A stretch of DNA of 64,000 nt from Desulfomarina profundi (GTDB lineage Bacteria; Desulfobacterota; Desulfobulbia; Desulfobulbales; Desulfocapsaceae). The stretch is from positions 4,050,501 through 4,114,500 of the forward strand of contig NZ_AP024086.1 in assembly GCF_019703855.1 (NCBI RefSeq), read 5' to 3'. How positions within the stretch are numbered: position 1 is the stretch's first letter; each line of letters starts with the position of its first letter. The notes under the pieces were generated by a model. It was not told the origin of the DNA and did not search any database. It saw only the letters and a list, made by a program, of their open reading frames with translations. Positions 42,074-59,033 of this stretch are shown here, one piece after another. The position numbers and the translations under genes are program-made.

Positions 42074-45000
42074 ATGGAACAGAAACGTAAAAAAAATTTG
42101 CTTCTGGAACAGCTGGAAGAGAGGATTTTCCTGGATGCCAATCCCATGGCCGCTGTTGTTGACCCAGTTGATCCTGTCGACCATCTGATTGATCCAGTGA
42201 TTGAGCCGGTCTCGGGAATGGCGACTTCTCCAGGGCAGCAGGAAGACATTTCTGCTGCAGAACCGCATGAAAAAATCGATCCTGGTGAGCAGGTTGAAAC
42301 AGTGGTCGCTGTGGAGTATCAGCAAACAGCTGCTGCAAATGAACCGCAGGAAAATAATGGACAGGAAACTGCACATTCCGGTGCAAAGGGAGAGGTGTCG
42401 CAGGGAGAAGCACCTGGAGAATCCGAGGGGATCAATAGCATTGATTTGGAAAATACCACCTCCACGACTGTTTCGGGGAAAATCATATTCAGGAGCAGAG
42501 CGGCACCGAAGGTCCGGTGATGAATGTTGTGGTGGATCAGGATGCAGTGGATCCGATGATTGGTGAGGATTTTACTTTCACTGTATCATTTGATAACACT
42601 GCAGGAGAAGATGTTTTTGGTCCATATATCGACGTATTGCTTGATGGTGGACAGGATGGAAACGATGCGGTGACAGACGATGGCATTTCTTTTCAGGGTG
42701 CCACGTACTCCACAGCAACTGTTGAGTCTTCAGTTATTACTGTAACCCAGACCGATGTCGGAAATGGATTAATCCACCCGTGGGCAAAAGACAGTAACGG
42801 TGATGCGCTTGTTATTCATTCCGTTAATGGTCAGTCTATCAGGGAGGGGGATCAATTTGTCAGTTTGCGTTTGCCTTTTGGTTCGTTTACAACCGATCAG
42901 CCTTCTATTGACGTGGAAATAACTGCTCATATGGGGGTGAATGCCGATGTCGATGTTGATCTGGATGTCAATGTTTCTACAGGAGCTTTGTATGGCAAAG
43001 ACCCACTTGATAATCCCCAGAAACCGGATCCGACTCTGACTGGTATTGAAACTTCTTCTCTTTCATTTAAACCGGAGGTTATACAGTACAGAAAAGATAT
43101 TGAGGTGACAAATGTCGGGGCAGATTGTCAGCAAGCACATGATCCCGACTATGATGATACCAGGCAATGGGCTGATAATTCAGCAAGACTGTTTGAAAAA
43201 AACCATCAGGAAATACCAACCGGACCGAATTTTCCAGCAACATATGTGGCAACAATCGATGTTGCTAATGGTCAGACCGTCACCGGGCTCACGCTGACTG
43301 AGCATCTTCCCGATAATATAGTCTATACGGGAATTGCCTCTGTTGAGGTTGGAGGTGTGGCCGCGGGATACAGTACGACCTTAAACGGAAATGATCTGAT
43401 CATAACCCTGGACAATGACGTTGCCGGGACAGCTGGAACAGACGATGTTGTCATAAAATATAATTTTTATATACCAGAACAGACCACGGGAGGCGCTGCG
43501 GTAATTGATCCCTTATCTGGGGATCTGACTCATATAACAAATAACGGTGCGGTTGGATATAATTGGGATCCAGCAGCAGGGGGACAGGGAGACCCCAATG
43601 ATACTGCAGTTGTGGGTGGTACCGTAAATCCTGAAGTGAATGCAGAGGGACATTTTTCCTCCAACCCTGATATTGATGATATTTCTCATGCCCAGTCCAT
43701 AGCTCTTCAAAAAGATCACAGTCCGTCGCAGGCGGACTATGCACCAGGGGATACGCTTGACTACACGCTTGATTTCCAGCTTTCCGATTATTTCTCATTT
43801 GGTGACCATGATCCAGCAGATACCAGTTACGCCTTTCGTATTGATGATGTCGTGGCTGATGGTCTGGCCATGCATGAGGATGGCAGTGGTAATTTTACAG
43901 CGACCATAGATATCTGGGAAAACGGCAACACATATTCTGAAATTCTTACGGCAACAGGGAGTGCCGGAGATAAAATGTGGTTCACAACAGGGACGACTGA
44001 TGACCCCAGTGATGTTGTCATTCACTATAATCTACAGAAAATTCTTGCGGGTATGGGGCTGGCCGGTGGTATTCTTAACGGAGACCTGGTTGATGGAGTT
44101 CAGCAGGAAGCAACCCATGGTCGTATAAGTTATCAGGCTGATATTGAGCAACATTACGAAACTGAAGATGCGAGTGATACTGATGTCGATCAGGGGGATA
44201 TTATTGATGGCGGTGCCACTATAACCGGTGAAGTGTATGACAATGCGAACGCTGCCTTTACTGGCCAGAGTGAAGAAGATCAGTCCTGTGACAGCCTCAG
44301 CATTTCTACCGGAGCGGTGAGTAAGGATATTTATTCTGTTCTGCACGGTGGCGCTTATGATTACAGCCCGGGTGGTAGTACCCATATTTCTCCTGGTGAT
44401 ACGGTAACCTATCTTCTTCGTTACAGCATGCCTCTGTCAAGTATTGAGGATTTTGAGTTGACTGATTACCTGCCACTTCCCATTTTTGATATTGATGCAA
44501 GCGGATGGAGTTTTAACAATACCGTGTACGATGGTACAAACGGTGCTCCAGGTGTCGGGGAATGGGCATATACTGACAACGATACCTTTCATTCACTTAC
44601 CGGTGTACCCGATCCCACCGTGGCGGTCAATGGAGCTCAGAATTCCATAAGCTTTGACTGGACGTCCTATCACAACCAGAGTGGTGCTGCAGACAATAAC
44701 TCCGTTATAGAAATAGTCTTTTCTGTTGCAACCTCTGATAAACCGTTTGCCAACGGGCTTTCCCTGACCAACCAGGTACAGGCAACTGAGCAGGGAACAC
44801 CCCTTGAAGACCACACGACTGACGCAATAATCCAGGTGGTTCTTGATGAACCGGATCTGACTATTGCTAAAACTGCTGTCCCTGTGTCAGGAGTCGATGC
44901 CGGTGATCCGGTTACCTTTACGGTTCAGGTTGACAATACAGGGGCTTCCGCTGCCTTTGATACAATAATAAAAGACACTCTGCCCTCCGGTTTTGATCAG

Positions 45001-49705: not shown

Positions 49706-51522
49706 ATGAGAATAAGAAAGGTTATTTGGGGAGCAGTTATTATTCTACTGACGTGTTCTACTGCTTCTTTAGCCGCTGAAAAACAACAGACTGATTTTGG
49801 CTTTGTGGTTAACTCGTCAGAAAAAGGGAACGAGGATTACAATACATTCAGGACAAAGATATTTAAGAGGTATTCCACTCTTATCAAGCAAATGCAACAG
49901 ATGGAGGATAATTATTCCAGTATTTTCTCCCGCAAATCTGTCTCCGGTCTGGTTATTGACCCGGGCGCCATTCCAAAAGAATACAGCTCCTGGTGGCGAT
50001 CAAGAGTAAACGGACAGATTAATAAGATGGTTCCTGAGGTTTCCATGGACATCACAGGCCTTTTTACCCGGGCTGTTAAATATTCATCACAGATTAAAGT
50101 GTTCAGCGACCTGCCCTTGATCCGGAAAACGGCTGTTCAGGAAGCTGAGGGTCCGTATGATTTCAGAATTTTTGCCGAGACAAGTCTGCGTGATATTAAT
50201 GAACCGGTTGGAGATGACCTGAAAACCGGTGGGGAACTGCGCTATAAAGAGAATTCAAAGAATCTGGAATACGGAGTACGAAAGAAGTTTCTGTTTGGCA
50301 CAGAGGTTGAACTCAAGCAGAATATCGGCGATATGGACACAAATTCCATCTATTTTCAGCCGAAAGATCAGGCAAGGACAGGAACCTCCCTGTCAATTAC
50401 CCAGCCGCTGCTCAAGCGGTTTGGTATCAGCTATAATCGAGCCTATATAGACCTAGCAAACCTTGACAGTTCAATTGCCGGAGAAGAATTGAGACGCAAT
50501 GTGGAGAGTCATCTCCTGGAAGTAGCCCGTGCCTACTGGAGTCTTTACCTGGAGCGGTCACTTCTTGTTCAGAAGGAACGGCTGGCCAGAAAAAGCAGAG
50601 AAATCTACGGCCAGATGAAAAGTCGAACAGCCGTGGATGTTCCGCCAAGTCTTTTGGCCAGGGCAAGATCCCAGGTCAATGCCCACGAACTCGGAGCCAT
50701 GCAGGCGGAGTACGCAATGTTGAATGCCCAGTCCAGGATACGGGCCCTGGTCAATGATCCTGGTCTGCTCAATGCGAATGGCTTGGAAATTGTTACCAGT
50801 CAACTGCCATCCCATGAAAGATTTGATATCGATTTCCATAATACTCTGGACGCGGCACTTTCTTCTCGTCCCGAGATTGGCCAGGCGGTTAGACATATCC
50901 AATCTGCCTATCTTCTGCTGAACCAGTCCGAAAATGAGTTATGGCCGGATCTTGATCTGTTTTTCCAGATGTACACCAAGGGTATTGAAGGTGATTATCA
51001 GTATGGTGATGCATATTCCAACCAGTTTGACGAGGGAGAGCCTAGCTATGTTGCCGGCCTGCGACTCCAGTATTCACTGGGGAATAATGGTGCGGCTGCC
51101 AGAAATACCCGGAAGAAACTGGAGATTCGGCAGTTGTTGCATCAGTTGGATACTACGGTTCAGAATATACTGCTTGAGGTCCAGGTCTCACACCGTGAGG
51201 TTGAAAAAAACTATCGCTCCATGGTGCAGTCCTACCAGATGATGCTTGCCGACGATGAGGAGGTTAAGGCATTGTACGCACGCGTTGACTACCTGCTGGC
51301 AAATAATGACCCTTATGGTGACGTACTGTATCGTCTGATGGATGCATTGGAGCGGTTAACCAGATCGGAGGAACTGTTTACTAAAAGTGAGTTGACTTAC
51401 AACTACTCTCTCTACAACCTGTACAGAGCAATGGGGTCCTGGTTAAAAAGAATGATATACGTATTGAAGAAGAAGGTTCGGACAGTGATGGATTGCCGGC
51501 AATTCTCGTTAAAAAACAGTAA
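49706..51522 (+). pseudogene. TolC-like outer-membrane channel protein, frameshifted near its end
   Basis: After a signal peptide (IRKVIWGAVIILLTCSTASLA) the protein of about 605 residues has the outer-membrane efflux layout: helical hairpins with ARAYWSLYLERSLLVQKERL and strands such as GTSLSITQPLLKRFGISYNRAY. One extra G in the run at 51433-51436 gives the natural end MGVLVKKNDIRIEEEG and stop 51522. Without it the frame runs on into the next gene and mimics a fusion. It would form the outer-membrane exit duct of the export system. AAAGG precedes ATG. Confidence 0.82.
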
Positions 51523-52329
51523 GATAAACTGTCTTTTTGTTCTGTTTGTTATTTTTTCCCCACCTGGCGCCGTCACCGGTGTGGCTGGTCAGCAAGGGAG
51601 TGATGCCTTCCTGGAGCCAAATCATGTTGTTAATATCGCTTCTCCTTTTCGGGAACGGATCAATGTTATTCACGTCAAGGAGGGCGACAGGGTTAAAAAA
51701 GGTGAACTTCTTGTTGAATTGGACTCCCGTGTACTCAAAACAAAGCTTGACCTGGCAAAGGAGGTGGCATCTTTTCATGGTTTGGTTGACTCTGCCAAAG
51801 CCAGCGTCTCCATGCAGAAGAACAGGTTCATAATGTTACAGAAACTTGCGGAAACGGGCAATGCGCGGCCTCAGGAAATGATTAAGGCAAAAACCGACCT
51901 GAGCATGGCTGAGGCGCGGTTGAGAAGTGCCCGGGAAGAAAGGCGAACGAAAAAACTGGAGGTGCAGATAATCCGGGCCATGATAGAAGAAAAAAAACTG
52001 CGCAGTCCGGTGAATGGAGTTGTTGTCAAAGTATATAAACAGGAAGCGGAGCTGGCCGGTGGGGGGATCAGCCGAACCTGGTGAGTATTGCCCAGCTCCA
52101 TCCATTGAAAGCCCGTTTTCATCTTGTTCCTCTACAGGTAGAACAGTTAAAGAGAGGCTCCAGTGTTGTTGTTGCAGTAAACTCTATCCAGATAACAGGT
52201 AAGGTTGATTCCATTTCGCCCATTGTTAATCCCCAGAGCGGTACAATGGAAGTGGTTGTAACCATCCCGAATGGTGATAACAGCCTGTTCAGTGGGACAC
52301 TCGCTACTTTACTTTTAACGGAAAAATAA
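51488..52329 (+). pseudogene. HlyD-like periplasmic adaptor, frameshifted
   Basis: ATG 51488 starts inside the end of the TolC gene (GAAGAAGG before it) and gives a signal peptide (KINCLFVLFVIFSPPGAVTG). A biotinyl-lipoyl domain (INVIHVKEGDRVKKGELLVELD), an alpha-hairpin and a second lipoyl half (LRSPVNGVVVKVYKQEAEL) follow. One extra G at 52061-52066 joins it to DQPNLVSIAQLHPL and the beta-barrel end, stop 52329, about 280 residues. It would link the inner-membrane parts to the TolC-like channel. Confidence 0.8.
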
Positions 52330-52333
52330 AAAA

Positions 52334-52609
52334 ATGAAAAAACAAGTGGAAAACACAGGAAAAAGCAATGAGCAGGTAACAGTGAGATATAATGAGACAT
52401 CATCTCTTTTTGCTTCCCAGTTTATTCTCAACACCAGTAGTGATGATGTTACAATTAGTTTCTCTTCCGGCCCCCTGGCGGATCCATCCGGAAATGGCAC
52501 TATCCTGCCGGTTCATAGCCGGATTGCCATGACCCGGGATGGTGCGAAACGACTGTATGAAATACTTGGTTCTGTTCTGGCACAGAATAAGAGTGGTCCT
52601 GCAAATTAA
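52334..52609 (+). CDS. Small DUF3467-like protein
   Basis: The 91-residue protein starts 4 bases after the adaptor gene. The core VRYNETSSLFASQFILNTSS, then DDVTISFSSG, then RIAMTRDGAKRLYEIL, matches the pattern of DUF3467 proteins as I remember it. Function is unknown. Its place inside the export genes suggests it is part of the system. Confidence 0.6.
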   Translation: MKKQVENTGKSNEQVTVRYNETSSLFASQFILNTSSDDVTISFSSGPLADPSGNGTILPVHSRIAMTRDGAKRLYEILGSVLAQNKSGPAN

Positions 52610-52624
52610 TCCGGACAGCCTGCA

Positions 52625-54454
52625 TTGAGTGAGCATTCTTCATATAGCCATAGCAGCCGGAAAACGGCTGTTGTTCCTGATATACACAAGCTGTCTGAAC
52701 AGTTTCTGTCATTGCCTGCAATTGCGGGGGATGAGCGGGGGCTGGTTGCCGAGTTTTTGCAACTTTCCATTGGCCTGATAAATGGGGCTGGAGGAATGTA
52801 TCAGTCGGCTGCCCGGAAAAACCCGATTGAACCGGTTGAATTGTTTTCACGGCAGGCTCTTTCCTGGTCCCCTGAGCTTGGTCGGATCCTCAATGAAAAC
52901 GGACAGGATGCCCTGGAGAACAGCAGGATTGTCTCCCGCGCACTTGAGGAGAATGGGGCTGTTTATCTTCTTTCATGTCCAGTTGGCAGCAGAGACAGGT
53001 ACCGTGGTTGTCTTTCTTTTGTGATATTGCCTGGAAAGCAGCCGATAGAATCATTTCTTGCAGTTATTCAGCTGTTGGCGGTTATTCTCAGTTCTTTTCT
53101 TGATAAGCTGGAATCGATAACAGGGGTTGATGGCGAAAAGCTCCTGCAGTTGACAATCGCAGTTGCCGGTATTATCGGGCATCGTGGCCGCAAAGAGGCC
53201 TATCTGTATTTTAATGAACAGCTGCGCAGTTGGGCCGGGTGCGATATGGTAGCTGTCGGTTCTCTGAATGATTCAGGGCAGGTAGTACTGAAATCTTTAT
53301 CTGATGTGACTTCTGTGGATTCACGCACAGAACGGTCACGTATCCTGATGAAGGGGTTGAGCGAGTGTGTAATTCATCAGCATGTCGATACCGATTCCGG
53401 TGAGGGTAATCCCGTTTTTCAGGAAATGCTGCATGTTTTTTCGCAAAAACATGCTTGTGGTCTGGCTCTTGTCAACGGAGAAGGAGTGCGGAGGGGGGCG
53501 GTTGTTTTTTTCTGGGACGGGAAAAAAAAGGATATGCGTTTTACTGACACGATCCGGGCCTCCGGCCAGATACTGGCTTCAGCTCTTTTGGCACTGGAGA
53601 ACAGGAAAGGGATGAGTGGCGGCATAATAAGACTGAACCGGCTCAGGAGACTAAAAACTGGTGCCATGGTTGCTGTTATGGCGATTCTCCTTGGATTGTT
53701 CAGTCTCCTTCCCGTTCCCTTTCGAATACACGCGAACTGTTCCGTACTCCCTGTTTATAAGCGATTTGTGGTTGCCGGTTTTGATGGTATTTTAAAGCAG
53801 GCATTGGTGCAGCCCGGGGACAGGGTGCAACAGGGCCAGGTCATGGCAAAACTGGATGGTAGAGAAACGGCTCTTCTCAAGGGGTCACTTGAAGCAGAAC
53901 GACAGAAAGCGCTGAAGACAAGGGATCATCATCTGGCAACAGGAGATACGGCTGCAACACAGATTGCCCAACTTGAAGTGCTTCGACTGGAGAAGCAGAT
54001 TGATCTGTTGAGGGAAAGGGAACACCATCTTGTTCTCACGAGTCCCATCGATGGTATTGTTCTTGCCGGAGATATGATGAGAATACAGGGCAGTCCGGTC
54101 AATAAGGGAAAGGTTCTGTTTGAGGTCGCTCCTTTGAACAAAATGATTGTTGAATTGGGTGTGGCTGAGGAAAATATTGGCTATATCAGTCGGGGAATGT
54201 CGGTAAAGATCCGCTTTGAGGCGTTCAGGAATCAAGCCTGGCAGGGAGAGGTGCAACGGATCAAACCCGAAGCTGAAATCCGCAATAATCGAAATGTCTT
54301 TCTCGTAGAACTGGAATTTGATAATCTGGACGACAGGCTCCGACCAGGGATGAAGGGCAAAGCGAATGTCGAGGGTGGGAAAAAACCACTGGCATGGATT
54401 GTATTCAGAAAACCATGGTATACATTTCTTCAGCTCATTGATTCTCTCTGGTAA
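52625..54454 (+). CDS. GAF-like / HlyD fusion membrane protein
   Basis: The 609-residue protein starts at TTG 52625; no strong ribosome site is seen, so the start is tentative. Residues about 1-330 are cytoplasmic with two GAF-like sensor segments (GMYQSAARKNPIEP ... VYLLSCPVGSRDRYRGCLSFVI, and CDMVAVGSLNDSGQ ... CGLALVNGEG). One membrane helix follows (TGAMVAVMAILLGLFSLLPV, about 345-363). A periplasmic HlyD-like part then has lipoyl motifs (FDGILKQALVQPGDRVQQGQVMAKLD and LTSPIDGIVLAGD). A sensor fused to an adaptor could gate export by a cytoplasmic signal. It is followed after 5 bases by the M50 gene. Confidence 0.75.
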   Translation: MSEHSSYSHSSRKTAVVPDIHKLSEQFLSLPAIAGDERGLVAEFLQLSIGLINGAGGMYQSAARKNPIEPVELFSRQALSWSPELGRILNENGQDALENSRIVSRALEENGAVYLLSCPVGSRDRYRGCLSFVILPGKQPIESFLAVIQLLAVILSSFLDKLESITGVDGEKLLQLTIAVAGIIGHRGRKEAYLYFNEQLRSWAGCDMVAVGSLNDSGQVVLKSLSDVTSVDSRTERSRILMKGLSECVIHQHVDTDSGEGNPVFQEMLHVFSQKHACGLALVNGEGVRRGAVVFFWDGKKKDMRFTDTIRASGQILASALLALENRKGMSGGIIRLNRLRRLKTGAMVAVMAILLGLFSLLPVPFRIHANCSVLPVYKRFVVAGFDGILKQALVQPGDRVQQGQVMAKLDGRETALLKGSLEAERQKALKTRDHHLATGDTAATQIAQLEVLRLEKQIDLLREREHHLVLTSPIDGIVLAGDMMRIQGSPVNKGKVLFEVAPLNKMIVELGVAEENIGYISRGMSVKIRFEAFRNQAWQGEVQRIKPEAEIRNNRNVFLVELEFDNLDDRLRPGMKGKANVEGGKKPLAWIVFRKPWYTFLQLIDSLW

Positions 54455-54459
54455 ACGGT

Positions 54460-56597
54460 TTGGAAACAGAAAAATTACCTACTCTGCCCAGGTTGCGCAA
54501 CGGACTTCGTTTCACCCCGATTATTGAAAAAGGAATATCCTGGTATATCCTCGAGGACCCTGTTCGAAACACTTATTATCGTATTGGAGTCGAAGAATAT
54601 CTGTTTCTCAGTAACCTGAATTGTTCCCCGGATTTTGAAACACTCCTGCAGATGGTTGAAAAAAGGAGTGGCATACACCTGAGTTCTGAGCAGGGGCAGG
54701 CGATACTGCATTGGCTGATGGATCGGCAGTTATTGCAGGATGACAGCGGTCATCTGGCTTTTTCCCTTGAGCGTGAACAGGAATCCGCTCGTCTAAAAAG
54801 AATCAACAGGCTGAATCTGATATCCTTTAAAATACCTCTTTTGAATCCCGATCTGTTTCTTGATCGAGTTTACCCCCGGCTGTCCTGGCTGACTGGTCGA
54901 ATGTTTTTTCTTTTATGGACAGTATTGGGCGTTTTGGGAATCGGGATCCTTATTGCCAGATGGTCTGAATTTACGGATCAGGTCATAGGTTTTTTTTCAC
55001 CCGAAAAACTGCTGTTGATCTGGTTGATCTGGTTTTTCTTGAAACTGCTTCACGAACTTTTTCATGCTCTTGTCTGTCGTCGCTACGGTGGCCGGGTGTA
55101 TGATTTTGGTATACTCTTTATTCTGTTTATCCCTCTGACTTATATTGACGCCACTTCTTCATGGAGTTTTTCTTCAAAGTGGCAGAGAATACATGTGGCT
55201 GTTGCAGGGATTTTTGCCGAACTCTGCATAGCCTGGATTGCTTTGTTGATATGGGGGGTGATTCCGGGGACGACAGCGGGACTTATTGCTCACAATACGG
55301 TGATGATTGCCGGGGTAAGCAGTCTGCTGTTTAATGCCAATCCCCTGATGCGTTTTGATGGGTATTATGTTTTGTCGGATGTGGTTTCGATTCCTAATCT
55401 GTATGGGCGGGGAATAGGTTTTATAAAAAATCTTGCCTCCTGGATTTTTTTTGGTGCCCGGAGAGAACCACTGCAGGAAAAAGGGTTATTAGGTGCCTTC
55501 ATAAAACTCTATGGTGTGTCTGTCTATATCTGGAGAATTCTGGTTATCATCTCTCTTGGCTATATTGCATCCCGTATGGCGGGTGGTTTCGGTATATTTA
55601 TTACATCAGGTGCTGTAATTATCTGGGTTGGAATGCCACTGGTATCACTTGTTAAACGATTGCAGAATCATAATAAACAGAATCCGGCTGTTCTTTATCG
55701 TTTTTTTGTCCGTCTGTTTATTGCTGCTGCCTGTCTTGGCTTTGGACTCCGGTACATCGGTTGGCAGGACCAGGTCAGGATTCCCGCTGTTGTTGAATAC
55801 CGTCATCAGTATGATGTCAGGCCGACAGTGGATGGCTTTGTAGATGAAATGAAAGTAATGGATGGAGATCAGGTAGACAAGGGGCAGCTACTTGCAGTGC
55901 TGGAGAACCGAGAATTACGTTTTCGCTACGCATCACTGCAACTCAAACATAAAAAATTGGAAATGCAAGCGCGTCTTGCCCGGAGTCGGGGCAAGGTCAA
56001 CGAGGTACAGATTCTTGAGGAACAGCTTCTTGTTCTGGACAGAGAGGTGGATGAACGGAAAAAAGATATTGATGGTCTGCAGGTTTACGCATCTGGAACC
56101 GGGACTGTTGCCGGTCTGGAGCCTGGTACGCTTCTTGGGACATATATTACCCGGGCAGAGAAATTATCCACGTTGTCAGCAAGGATCAGAAATATTTGGT
56201 GGCAAGTTGCTCCCAGGATGATATAGATCGAGTTCGTGCTCTTCTAGGCAAAGAGGTTTCTGTTGATATGAGAAAATCAGGATTTGGTCAATTTACTGCT
56301 GTGTTAGCAAAGGTTTCACCGACAGCGACAACGGATCTGGTTCATCCTGCGCTGGGCGCGGTTTTTGGAGGCCCTCTGGATGTCCGCCGCCGGGTCGTAG
56401 GCAACGGGGTGAAAAATCAGTACTACCGGTATGAACTTTTCGGGCCCAGGTTCAGGTTGGAAATCGCATTGCCAGAGGTGCTCAAGGATCGTCTCAGGGT
56501 CGGACAGTCTGCCCTGGTTCGCATCAGGGGCAACAGGGTAATGCTCTGGAAGAGAATTATTTCCCGGTTTGAGAACTGGTTGCGGAGTAAACAATGA
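54460..56597 (+). pseudogene. PqqD-like / M50 peptidase / HlyD membrane protein, frameshifted
   Basis: The start at 54460 is TTG. One extra base in CCCGGG at 56150-56155 joins TYITRG to REIIHVVSKDQKYL and gives about 712 residues. Residues about 10-105 resemble PqqD-type substrate-binding domains. The membrane core carries the zinc motif HELFHAL (about 198-204) and NANPLMRFDGYY (the second M50 motif, about 293-304), among several helices (LLLIWLIWFFLKL, ILVIISLGYIASRM). The C-terminal part is HlyD-like (VDGFVDEMKVMDGDQVDKGQ). The catalytic HExxH is kept, so it may cleave a substrate in the membrane. It is the likely inner-membrane hub of the export system. Confidence 0.8.
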
Positions 56598-57466
56598 AAT
56601 ACTATTTTTATGCGATAGGTGCGATATTCTGCTGGGCAAGTCTGCCCGTTGCCACCGGTTCCGGTCTTGATGAGTTCTCCACCGAAGAACTGATGTTTTA
56701 CAGTTTTGCCAGTGCGACCGTCTTTCTGTATATCCAGGATATTCTCATTAATAGAAGTGCAAAGATTCATCTGCCCGGCTGGAGAGTATCTCTTATGGGT
56801 ATTTGGGGGATATTTCTTTATCATTATGTCTATTATCAGGCTCTGGACCTTGTTCCTCTGGCTGAAGGTGCGATTCTGGCTACAACATGGTCGTTCTGGA
56901 TTGTTGTTTTTTCTTCTTTTTTCATCTTCAGGCGGTTGAAATTATCGATATTGCTCATCGCTTTTGTCGGGTTATGCGGGGCTGGTATGGTTATTGCGGC
57001 GGGAAAGGAGTTGAGTTTTGATCTTGTCTATATGCAGGGTTACCTGCTTGCACTTTTATGCGGATTGATATGGTCGAGTTTTTCGGTTGGGTTGTCCCGA
57101 ATGAAGAGAGAAACAAACCATGAGCCGATGACGGCTTTTACGCTTTATGCCGCCCTGCTGTCTGCAGTTCTTTTTATACTGACAATGCCCCATGAGGTGC
57201 CGTCTACAGCAGGGTTGTTTTCTGCAGTGTATCTGGGATGTGTTCCTCTGGGACTTTCGTTTTTCCTGTGGAACAGGGCAATGAACGGGGGGAACCTGAT
57301 GGTAATCGGATTTCTATCCTATTTTACCCCTCCTCTGGCGGTGTTTCTTGTAGCAGTAATAAAAAAAGAAGCCGTTTCCGGGCAGGTTCTCCTGGGGATG
57401 GTACTGATTCTTGCCGCTTCAATTGTCGGCAAGCTGGTGCTCGACAGAAGTCAAAAGCAGGTGTAG
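56594..57466 (+). CDS. EamA/DMT-family transporter
   Basis: The 290-residue membrane protein has about ten helices in two EamA halves (IFCWASLPVATGSGL, GLCGAGMVIAAG; YLGCVPLGLSFFLWNRAMNGG, MVLILAASIVGKLVLD). It overlaps the M50 stop by 4 bases (ATGA), so it is co-transcribed. Members export small metabolites such as amino acids; a role in the surface system is not evident. Confidence 0.85.
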   Translation: MKYYFYAIGAIFCWASLPVATGSGLDEFSTEELMFYSFASATVFLYIQDILINRSAKIHLPGWRVSLMGIWGIFLYHYVYYQALDLVPLAEGAILATTWSFWIVVFSSFFIFRRLKLSILLIAFVGLCGAGMVIAAGKELSFDLVYMQGYLLALLCGLIWSSFSVGLSRMKRETNHEPMTAFTLYAALLSAVLFILTMPHEVPSTAGLFSAVYLGCVPLGLSFFLWNRAMNGGNLMVIGFLSYFTPPLAVFLVAVIKKEAVSGQVLLGMVLILAASIVGKLVLDRSQKQV

Positions 57467-57977: not shown

Positions 57978-59033
57978 TCATGCTGCCTTTCTTCTTGATA
58001 AAACGTTACGTTTGTAAACCGGGTCATATATTTCTCCATATTTCCACAGACGATGTAGGAGTATTGCTAATTTCCTTCCCACTGCCACTACAGCTTTACG
58101 TCTTGCATTTTTCCCGCCTCTAGATGCCAGACGTAAACCAAAACGTTGCAGGTTACAGTCCTCTCCAAATGGGCCAAGAATATATTGCGCCGAATTTATC
58201 AATAGCTTTCGTAAAAACGGACTGCCAGCTTTGGTTATTCGAAGCTGTTTATCTGTCTCTCCAGATTGATCGCGACGAGGTGTCAGCCCGAGATATGGGC
58301 CAATCTGTCTGCTTTTTCCAAATCTACCAGGATCTTCAACCGTCAACACAAATGCCAGAGCTGTTATAGGACCGACTCCTTTCACTCGCCTGAGCAACTC
58401 TGTCTCAGGATACCGCTCACTGCTGATACTCTCGATTTCTTTATCCAAAGCTTTAATTTGTTCGTTAAGCTGTGCAATGAGTATCAGTACAGGTCCAAGG
58501 CCAAGCTGCAACTGTTGAGGAATATGGGATATAGCCTTTTTATGAAAACATTCTGTGCTACAACTTGGTAACCGCTCACCAAAGGATTTTACAATGCCAC
58601 GAACATGATTAATCTGACTAGAGCGGGTTCTCACCAATAAATCTCTTGAGTGCAATAGTGCAAGATCCGCTTGTACCTGTTCACCTTTATGTTGTATCGG
58701 ATAAAGCAAATTGGGATCGAATCGTGCTATCCTTGCAAGCATTTCAGCATCTCGCTGATCTGTCTTACAATCACTCTCCCATATTGCACGTAGTTTTCTT
58801 GGGTTCCCCACTAAAACATTACAGCCCATGGAGCTCAGGAGTCTACTCATCCATGGGGAATGAGTTCCCGCTTCAATAGCGACCGTAGTTCTTTTATATT
58901 TCCTAAAAAATTTTCTTATGGATTCTACATTGTTGTCTATAGATTTACTCAGCAGGATGGTACCTCTGTCACCCACAATACAAACAAAATTTGTTTTATC
59001 GCCTAAATCCATTCCAATTGTTATACTGTTCAT
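57978..59033 (-). CDS. IS110-family transposase (DEDD recombinase)
   Basis: The 351-residue protein has the N-terminal RuvC-like DEDD domain (IGMDLGDKTNFVCIVG; VAIEAGTHSPWMSRLL; KTDQRDAEMLARIA) and the C-terminal transposase_20 domain with LLRRVKGVGPITALAFVLT and RITKAGSPFLRKLLI. Length and both domains are complete. The ribosome site GGAG lies inside the repeat GGAGAACCAGCC directly before ATG. That repeat can pair with an upstream copy, which may hide the start in read-through RNA. Confidence 0.92.
   Translation of the reverse strand: MNSITIGMDLGDKTNFVCIVGDRGTILLSKSIDNNVESIRKFFRKYKRTTVAIEAGTHSPWMSRLLSSMGCNVLVGNPRKLRAIWESDCKTDQRDAEMLARIARFDPNLLYPIQHKGEQVQADLALLHSRDLLVRTRSSQINHVRGIVKSFGERLPSCSTECFHKKAISHIPQQLQLGLGPVLILIAQLNEQIKALDKEIESISSERYPETELLRRVKGVGPITALAFVLTVEDPGRFGKSRQIGPYLGLTPRRDQSGETDKQLRITKAGSPFLRKLLINSAQYILGPFGEDCNLQRFGLRLASRGGKNARRKAVVAVGRKLAILLHRLWKYGEIYDPVYKRNVLSRRKAA

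Follow-up and report, generated by a model that had tools for sequence, protein, structure and literature searches.

A fused leader-binding, site-2 protease and HlyD-type protein is probably the gatekeeper of a little-known export route for very large proteins

In type 1 secretion (HlyB-HlyD-TolC), giant repeat-rich substrates are exported, and the signal is usually C-terminal. PCAT and NHLP-type ABC exporters cut an N-terminal leader during export and combine a cysteine protease with an ABC ATPase and an HlyD-type adaptor. The daptide metalloproteases (NCBIfam daptide_HExxH, NF041824) join leader-binding and M50 parts in a 379-position model without an HlyD part, and their substrate, going by the family name, is a peptide. 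A related locus was described by Kamneva, Poudel and Ward (2015; PMC4452313), in which an M50-HlyD protein is accompanied by HlyD-type adaptors, sometimes an outer membrane factor (OEP) protein, and a secondary SecA (SecA_DEAD) that was proposed as the ATPase of the locus. The main text of that paper names no substrate: the words 'PqqD', 'LEPR', 'leader', 'cargo' and 'adhesin' are absent from it, and 'substrate' occurs once, in a general sense. In the literature that we searched, whose coverage left many subscription papers and all bioRxiv preprints outside, no paper tied the LEPR-XLL tag to this machinery.

We analysed a 64,000-nucleotide stretch of the Desulfomarina profundi genome (the window), in which an operon runs in the order giant protein, TolC-type factor with adaptor, DUF3467-like protein, HlyD-type adaptor and fusion protein (Table 1). 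No ABC exporter is encoded among the genes of the operon. The operon shares with type 1 secretion the HlyD and TolC parts and a giant repeat-rich protein as putative substrate, but it lacks the ABC exporter and carries an N-terminal tag. It differs from the PCAT and NHLP exporters in having an M50 protease and no ABC exporter in place of the cysteine protease and ABC ATPase. The window operon is a form of the locus of Kamneva et al. (2015), which likewise has the M50-HlyD protein and the HlyD-type adaptors and has no ABC transporter; the difference is the secondary SecA, none of which was found in the genome of the window. The second HlyD-type adaptor occupies the position of the 'GAF-HlyD' gene of the published locus, and Pfam GAF had no match in 52625-54451 at E 0.1.

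Table 1. Coordinates of the fusion gene, its predicted parts and the other genes of the operon in the window
Feature	Coordinates	Strand	Basis and remarks
Start of giant protein with LEPR-XLL leader; frame closes at 42518	42074..42517	+	NF012209 LEPR-8K 17.4 bits, cut-off 17
Core leader motif LEERIFLDA	42113..42139	+	Logo of 49 leaders
Remainder of giant in another frame, SdrD_B and DUF11-type repeats, 2265 aa	42517..49314	+	Profile matches
TolC-type outer membrane factor, followed in the same frame by the first portion of a periplasmic adaptor	49706..52084	+	Pfam OEP 9.8e-14; NCBIfam RND_mfp, residues 634-780
Remainder of periplasmic adaptor in another frame	52081..52329	+	HlyD_D23 29.7 bits (cut-off 30); HlyD_3 29 bits (cut-off 22.2)
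Small DUF3467-like protein	52334..52609	+	Pfam DUF3467 6.7e-5, 23.3 bits, below cut-off 25; also in several related loci
Second HlyD-type adaptor	52625..54454	+	HlyD_D23 5.5e-22
Fusion, first part, PqqD/RRE - site-2 protease - HlyD, 588 aa	54460..56226	+	Pfam, NCBIfam, AlphaFold2, VIA-align
Predicted RRE (PqqD-like) fold, residues 7-96	54478..54747	+	TbiB1 with leader peptide, Z 10.1
Predicted site-2 protease core, residues 131-312	54850..55395	+	RseP Z 10.5, SpoIVFB Z 10.0
HELFH zinc motif, residues 198-202	55051..55065	+	HExxH in 94/95 rows
NANPLMRFDGYY, second zinc motif (NPxxxxDG type), residues 292-303	55333..55368	+	Sequence and alignment
Predicted lipoyl/hairpin part, MacA/EmrA-like adaptor, residues 446-577	55795..56190	+	VIA-align
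C-terminal remainder of fusion in another frame, 133 aa	56196..56597	+	47% identity to residues 580-713 of relative L002

Several genes of the operon are split between frames. The break in the fusion lies near 56210; the relative L002, which matches the final 133 aa at 47%, has an unbroken gene. Likewise, relatives such as L022, L024 and L027 encode the adaptor that ends at 52329 in an unbroken gene of its own. The only SecA gene of the genome is frame-broken too, into pieces of 523 and 350 aa (L101 1483-3054 and 2982-4034; G000:C1, about 910000), and for this reason we read the breaks as probable assembly errors. Indel errors in this single-contig assembly would be the simpler cause, and a pseudogene reading is therefore not our main view. 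A YddG/EamA-type exporter gene (56594-57466) overlaps the end of the second frame of the fusion, and 57978-59033 on the minus strand encodes what we take by eye to be an IS110-like transposase. A defence-system reading was also considered; PADLOC gave no match for the two proteins scanned.

The preliminary description had seen PqqD-like, M50 and HlyD-like parts in one protein, and profile searches together with structure prediction bore this out. The fusion scored above the cut-offs of Pfam Peptidase_M50 (PF02163; E 7e-8, 32.5 bits, cut-off 27.2) and HlyD_D23 (E 2.3e-7, 30.8 bits, cut-off 30), and weakly matched TIGR03794, a profile for HlyD-type adaptors as in the PCAT and NHLP-type exporters (E 5.8e-5). 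The daptide profile NF041824 aligned to residues 11-404, which hold the leader-binding and M50 parts, with E 1.2e-45 and 156.3 bits against a cut-off of 300. Of the 61 sequences in the family alignment, seven matched Pfam PqqD (PF05402), at best with E 9e-10; the window fusion had no match to it at E 0.1. The AlphaFold2 model of the window's own 588 aa (pLDDT 89.9) was compared with solved structures by VIA-align. Residues 7-96 aligned to TbiB1, a RiPP leader-binding domain whose solved structure includes the leader (Z 10.1, rmsd 3.1, 85 aligned). The central region aligned to Kangiella RseP (residues 179-310; Z 10.5, rmsd 3.1, 129 aligned), E. coli RseP (residues 180-371; Z 10.1, rmsd 3.7, 158 aligned) and SpoIVFB with pro-sigmaK (residues 131-312; Z 10.0, rmsd 4.4, 135 aligned), and the C-terminal region to EmrA (residues 444-585; Z 14.7, rmsd 2.4, 139 aligned) and MacA (residues 446-577; Z 12.7, rmsd 2.0, 130 aligned). 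The predicted structure of L002 (718 aa, intact gene; pLDDT 91.6) has the same three parts, and its N-terminal part aligned to TbiB1 with Z 10.6 over 83 residues; the Foldseek matches listed for L002 were adaptors, and the RRE and protease parts came from the VIA-align lists. The fusion is therefore predicted to fold as an RRE, a site-2 protease core and an HlyD/MacA-type adaptor. At a hydropathy cut of 1.6 it has seven hydrophobic helices, an odd number, which would leave the RRE on one side of the membrane and the HlyD part on the other.

A contig scan found 257 stretches encoding a relative, and the best 80 of them were retained. The records are labelled as Desulfobulbaceae and other Desulfobacterota, Planctomycetes, Verrucomicrobia, Nitrospira, Elusimicrobia, a Saprospiraceae bin, Alpha- and Gammaproteobacteria, and Pelagibacteraceae. 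Both zinc motifs, which had been called intact from the window alone, are so and are conserved across the family: HExxH was retained in 94 of 95 aligned rows (the window included), and 14 columns were invariant in all 61 sequences, among them H198, E199, H202, N292 and D300, one of the 14 being the start Met. As the alignment reads, the conservation of the motifs is not due to chance. The one exception without HExxH, a distant family member (L014 1429-3720), is possibly a dead protease. Matches that covered only RRE-M50 or M50 were also seen (G138:C65, G166:C119, G068:C1, G286:C219, G314:C1, G128:C47 and G058:C45).

Of the 117 loci whose flanking sequence was long enough, 96 had an HlyD-type gene directly upstream of the fusion; in some of the remaining 21 it lay downstream or was masked by an over-long ORF call. 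We grouped the genes of the 80 loci by single-linkage clustering and read the 40 largest clusters by eye. They comprised adaptors (which fell into one cluster with the fusion), giants, TolC, DUF3467 and SecA; the other clusters were, by eye, single-lineage genes. An ABC protein present in 9 loci (representative 229 aa) appeared by eye to be of the LolD type and confined to one lineage. Neither a further transporter nor a sigma or anti-sigma gene was recognized by eye among the 40 largest clusters, and an ABC protein of exporter size was found near 2 of 69 loci.

The giant protein of the window begins MEQKRKKNLLLEQLEERIFLDANPMA at 42074 and scored above the cut-off (17) of the LEPR-XLL profile NF012209, with 17.4 bits and, in the genome search, 19.6. 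Near fusion genes in related loci, we counted 34 large repeat-type ORFs whose start was uncut, and in 28 of them a pattern search found the tag (LExR[ILV][LM][LF][SD][AG]) within 150 aa; the six without it were L037, the second ORF of L042, L123, L160, L172 and the giant of the window, whose start lies in another frame. As background, the tag occurred in 18 of 1428 ORFs 150-900 aa long and in 1 of 486 that had other composition and at least 500 aa, and shuffled versions of the 34 ORFs carried the tag in 0.3%. A logo of 49 leaders (of 50 after removal of near-duplicates) showed a basic stretch, [LF]E and the tag, after which conservation drops. The search pattern fixed L, E, R and the residue classes of +5 and +6, and left free the positions before L as well as +2, +4, +7 and +8; at +8, A or G was found in 48 of the 49 leaders. 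A Sec-type stretch (15-residue hydropathy of at least 1.6) occurred in one leader and was missing from the other 48, so the leader has no evident transmembrane helix.

Uncultured alphaproteobacteria (L067, L148, L149) carry the variant LEPRIMFDGA. The 12 Pelagibacteraceae-labelled loci held 7 large ORFs, all with cut starts; one giant of this group (G395), followed to the end of its contig, opens its frame about 280 bases from the end in an odd-looking stretch and showed no tag, which makes it a single uncertain case. Tagged open frames reached 9795 and 15080 aa. In Variovorax (L224 and L232; CP063167.1 19413-68132), a 48.7-kb gene with a LEPR-type start lies directly upstream of TolC, adaptors and fusion.

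As a control, we examined 80 Desulfobacterota genomes without the fusion, in which SdrD_B repeats occurred at 17 places in 11 genomes and 14 proteins. None of the 14 carried the LEPR tag; 11 had a Sec-like hydrophobic start, and the start of the other three was open or unclear. These proteins, 421-2948 aa as read, are smaller than many tagged giants. The comparison suggests that the tag replaces the Sec-type start in proteins with the same repeats. In 35 leader-fusion pairs, the partial correlation with leader distance was 0.15 for the RRE (p 0.003), 0.285 for the protease (p 0.0005) and 0.04 for the HlyD part (p 0.26). Coevolution of the leader with the RRE and protease parts would fit recognition and cutting, with ancestry only partly removed.

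Genome-level comparisons linked the tag to the fusion in two of three groups. Of 297 Desulfobacterota genomes, 15 had a full-length fusion, and 9 of these gave a LEPR match at E 0.01, as did 3 of the 282 others (Fisher p 2.4e-11); when the window's own genome was left out, the count with the fusion was 8 of 14. This threshold was set after the list had been seen; at E 0.05 the counts were 11/15 and 13/282. The 15 fusion-positive genomes were spread over 9 families. Among 196 genomes of the phylum to which G365 belongs (the genome with the Aporhodopirellula locus L048; phylum here treated as Planctomycetota), the counts were 16 of 46 with and 1 of 150 without the fusion (Fisher p 1.2e-10). Among 191 genomes of the class of G382, taken as Alphaproteobacteria, the curated profile gave 1 of 10 with and 3 of 181 without (p 0.19), that is, no association. 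As measured, this result speaks against a universal link; the class is not a fair test, because in G382/L071 a tag is visible that the curated profile did not pick up, and variant tags in Alphaproteobacteria were found by pattern. At E 0.01, 30 of the 46 planctomycete and 6 of the 15 Desulfobacterota fusion genomes had no LEPR match. The Fisher tests, like the partial Mantel tests, leave shared ancestry in.

Some assignments bear on these counts. Of the three Desulfobacterota genomes with a LEPR match outside the fusion group, two (G132 and G182) carried N-terminal LEPR tags and no fusion even when all candidates were scored on recheck; their secondary SecA genes lie on short contigs, so an assembly gap at the fusion is possible. 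In six of 21 Desulfobacterota genomes the match covered RRE-M50 only, ending no later than position 421; we scored these six as lacking the fusion, and none of them had a LEPR match at E 0.05. G313, whose match lacks the first 128 positions, was counted as with it. The best three candidates per genome were scored in Desulfobacterota and the best five in Planctomycetota and Alphaproteobacteria, which makes absence of the fusion less sure than its presence. G000, G365, G354, G392 and G382 were placed in the sets since the fusion gene had already been found there. A LEPR match near residue 670 of an ORF (G528) was retained as a count against our reading, and we also retained G640, which has no N-terminal tag by pattern, and G139, whose match lies in a 115-aa frame. 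In the planctomycete set, G584 and G555 had 18 and 8 LEPR-XLL matches at E 0.01 on many contigs, so that a number of scattered proteins may share the tag there.

Plasmid annotations show the order giant, TolC, adaptor, HlyD and fusion also in Burkholderia anthina, Kosakonia cowanii, Escherichia coli and Azospirillum brasilense, with no annotated ABC exporter in any of the four operons. In A. brasilense, a tagged DUF4347 part and a long Ig-like part form two overlapping CDS. We examined 14 of 64 matching plasmid records, from 13 genera (Azospirillum twice), and found the LEPR tag in 11; it lay in a separate upstream frame in Caballeronia and in an ORF downstream of the fusion in Tistrella. The loci without it were those of Magnetospirillum, where the annotated protein starts inside repeats, Phyllobacterium and Indioceanicola. 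Among 5426 complete E. coli genomes, the fusion gene had matches in 24, 22 of them with at least 80% of the gene, and the start of the giant had matches in 24. The annotations of the E. coli plasmid copy (L219) read HlyD or site-2 protease, TolC and Ig-like proteins. The preliminary description had paired the fusion with the LEPR-XLL giant as a natural candidate substrate; with 28 of 34 ORFs, two phyla and plasmids, this pairing gained comparative support beyond the window.

The genome of the window has one SecA_DEAD match, the housekeeping gene with the broken frame. Among the 69 loci with 5 kb on both sides, 14 had a secondary SecA nearby. A SecA_DEAD scan of 80 genomes, in which pieces of one frame were counted once, included 15 Desulfobacterota with the fusion, 15 of the 46 such Planctomycetota and 7 of the 10 such Alphaproteobacteria; a second match was present in 5, 12 and none of them, respectively. 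Without the fusion, the counts were 2 of 14, 1 of 12 and 0 of 6, respectively. The other 11 scanned genomes all had the fusion; G351 and G385 had a second SecA, eight had one, and G350 had no match. A secondary SecA as a universal motor is unsupported, given the 0 of 7 Alphaproteobacteria and its absence from the genome of the window.

We consider it likely that the fusion serves as the inner-membrane gate on a route by which giant surface-type proteins are secreted without an ABC transporter. The computed basis comprises the three-part fold, the catalytic residues, the shared operons, the LEPR leader in place of a Sec-like start and the co-occurrence in two of three groups. In the proposed mechanism, the cytosolic N-terminal PqqD/RRE domain would bind the basic, LExR-containing leader of the giant, and the site-2 protease core would then cut it, most likely right after the small residue at +8 (A or G), since conservation drops there. 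The freed chain would pass to the fused HlyD part, to two more adaptors and to TolC. Energy may come from the secondary SecA where one is encoded; the window's genome has the housekeeping SecA only.

The same loci can be read in other ways. The fusion might act mainly as a channel or scaffold that replaces the ABC transporter, its protease fold forming a pore and the leader being recognized and left uncut. Kamneva et al. (2015; PMC4452313) suggested that it stands in for the ABC transporter, and the reading agrees with the absence of an ABC exporter from the window operon and the rarity of exporter-size ABC proteins at the loci (2 of 69). However, a mere pore would not need zinc motifs, and both are kept across phyla, HExxH in all rows but one and the second motif nearly without variation; we regard the pore as unlikely, though worth keeping in mind. 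If instead the protease does cut the leader, the inner membrane might still be crossed by way of the housekeeping SecA/SecYEG or a remote ABC exporter, with the fusion acting afterwards in processing and as an adaptor. The housekeeping SecA as the only one in the genome of the window and the secondary SecA at 14 of 69 loci would suit such a division of labour, but 48 of 49 LEPR starts have no Sec-type hydrophobic stretch, and no further transporter stood out by eye in the 40 largest neighbour clusters. We think this arrangement unlikely.

The protease core also resembles RseP and SpoIVFB, which are regulatory proteases, and the fusion could accordingly be a signalling protease that senses the state of export by regulated intramembrane proteolysis, its neighbourhood with the giant being regulatory. 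The HlyD adaptor in the same chain and the RRE-type leader-binding fold argue against this, as do the 40 largest neighbour clusters, where no sigma or anti-sigma gene was seen by eye, and we find a signalling role very improbable.

Compared with the gate itself, a wider reading is more tentative, and we give it about an even chance: LEPR-XLL, at the N-terminus, would direct the largest bacterial proteins to a distinct secretion system that uses no ABC transporter, with the fusion as receptor, signal peptidase and periplasmic adaptor in one. Such a system would extend over several phyla; some lineages would have a secondary SecA and others not, and some genomes would hold many dispersed substrates. 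What appears to be new here, from sequence comparison, is the LEPR tag in 28 of 34 giants near the fusion, the missing Sec-type stretch and the genome-level link with the fusion gene. Tying the tag to the fusion machinery would provide the system with a cargo and a signal, together with a chemical step that can be tested. If the reading is true, one protein would recognize, cut and hand over proteins of up to about 10,000-16,000 residues, and this would help to explain the operons for giant surface-type proteins that have no ABC exporter in Gram-negative bacteria of several phyla and on some E. coli plasmids.
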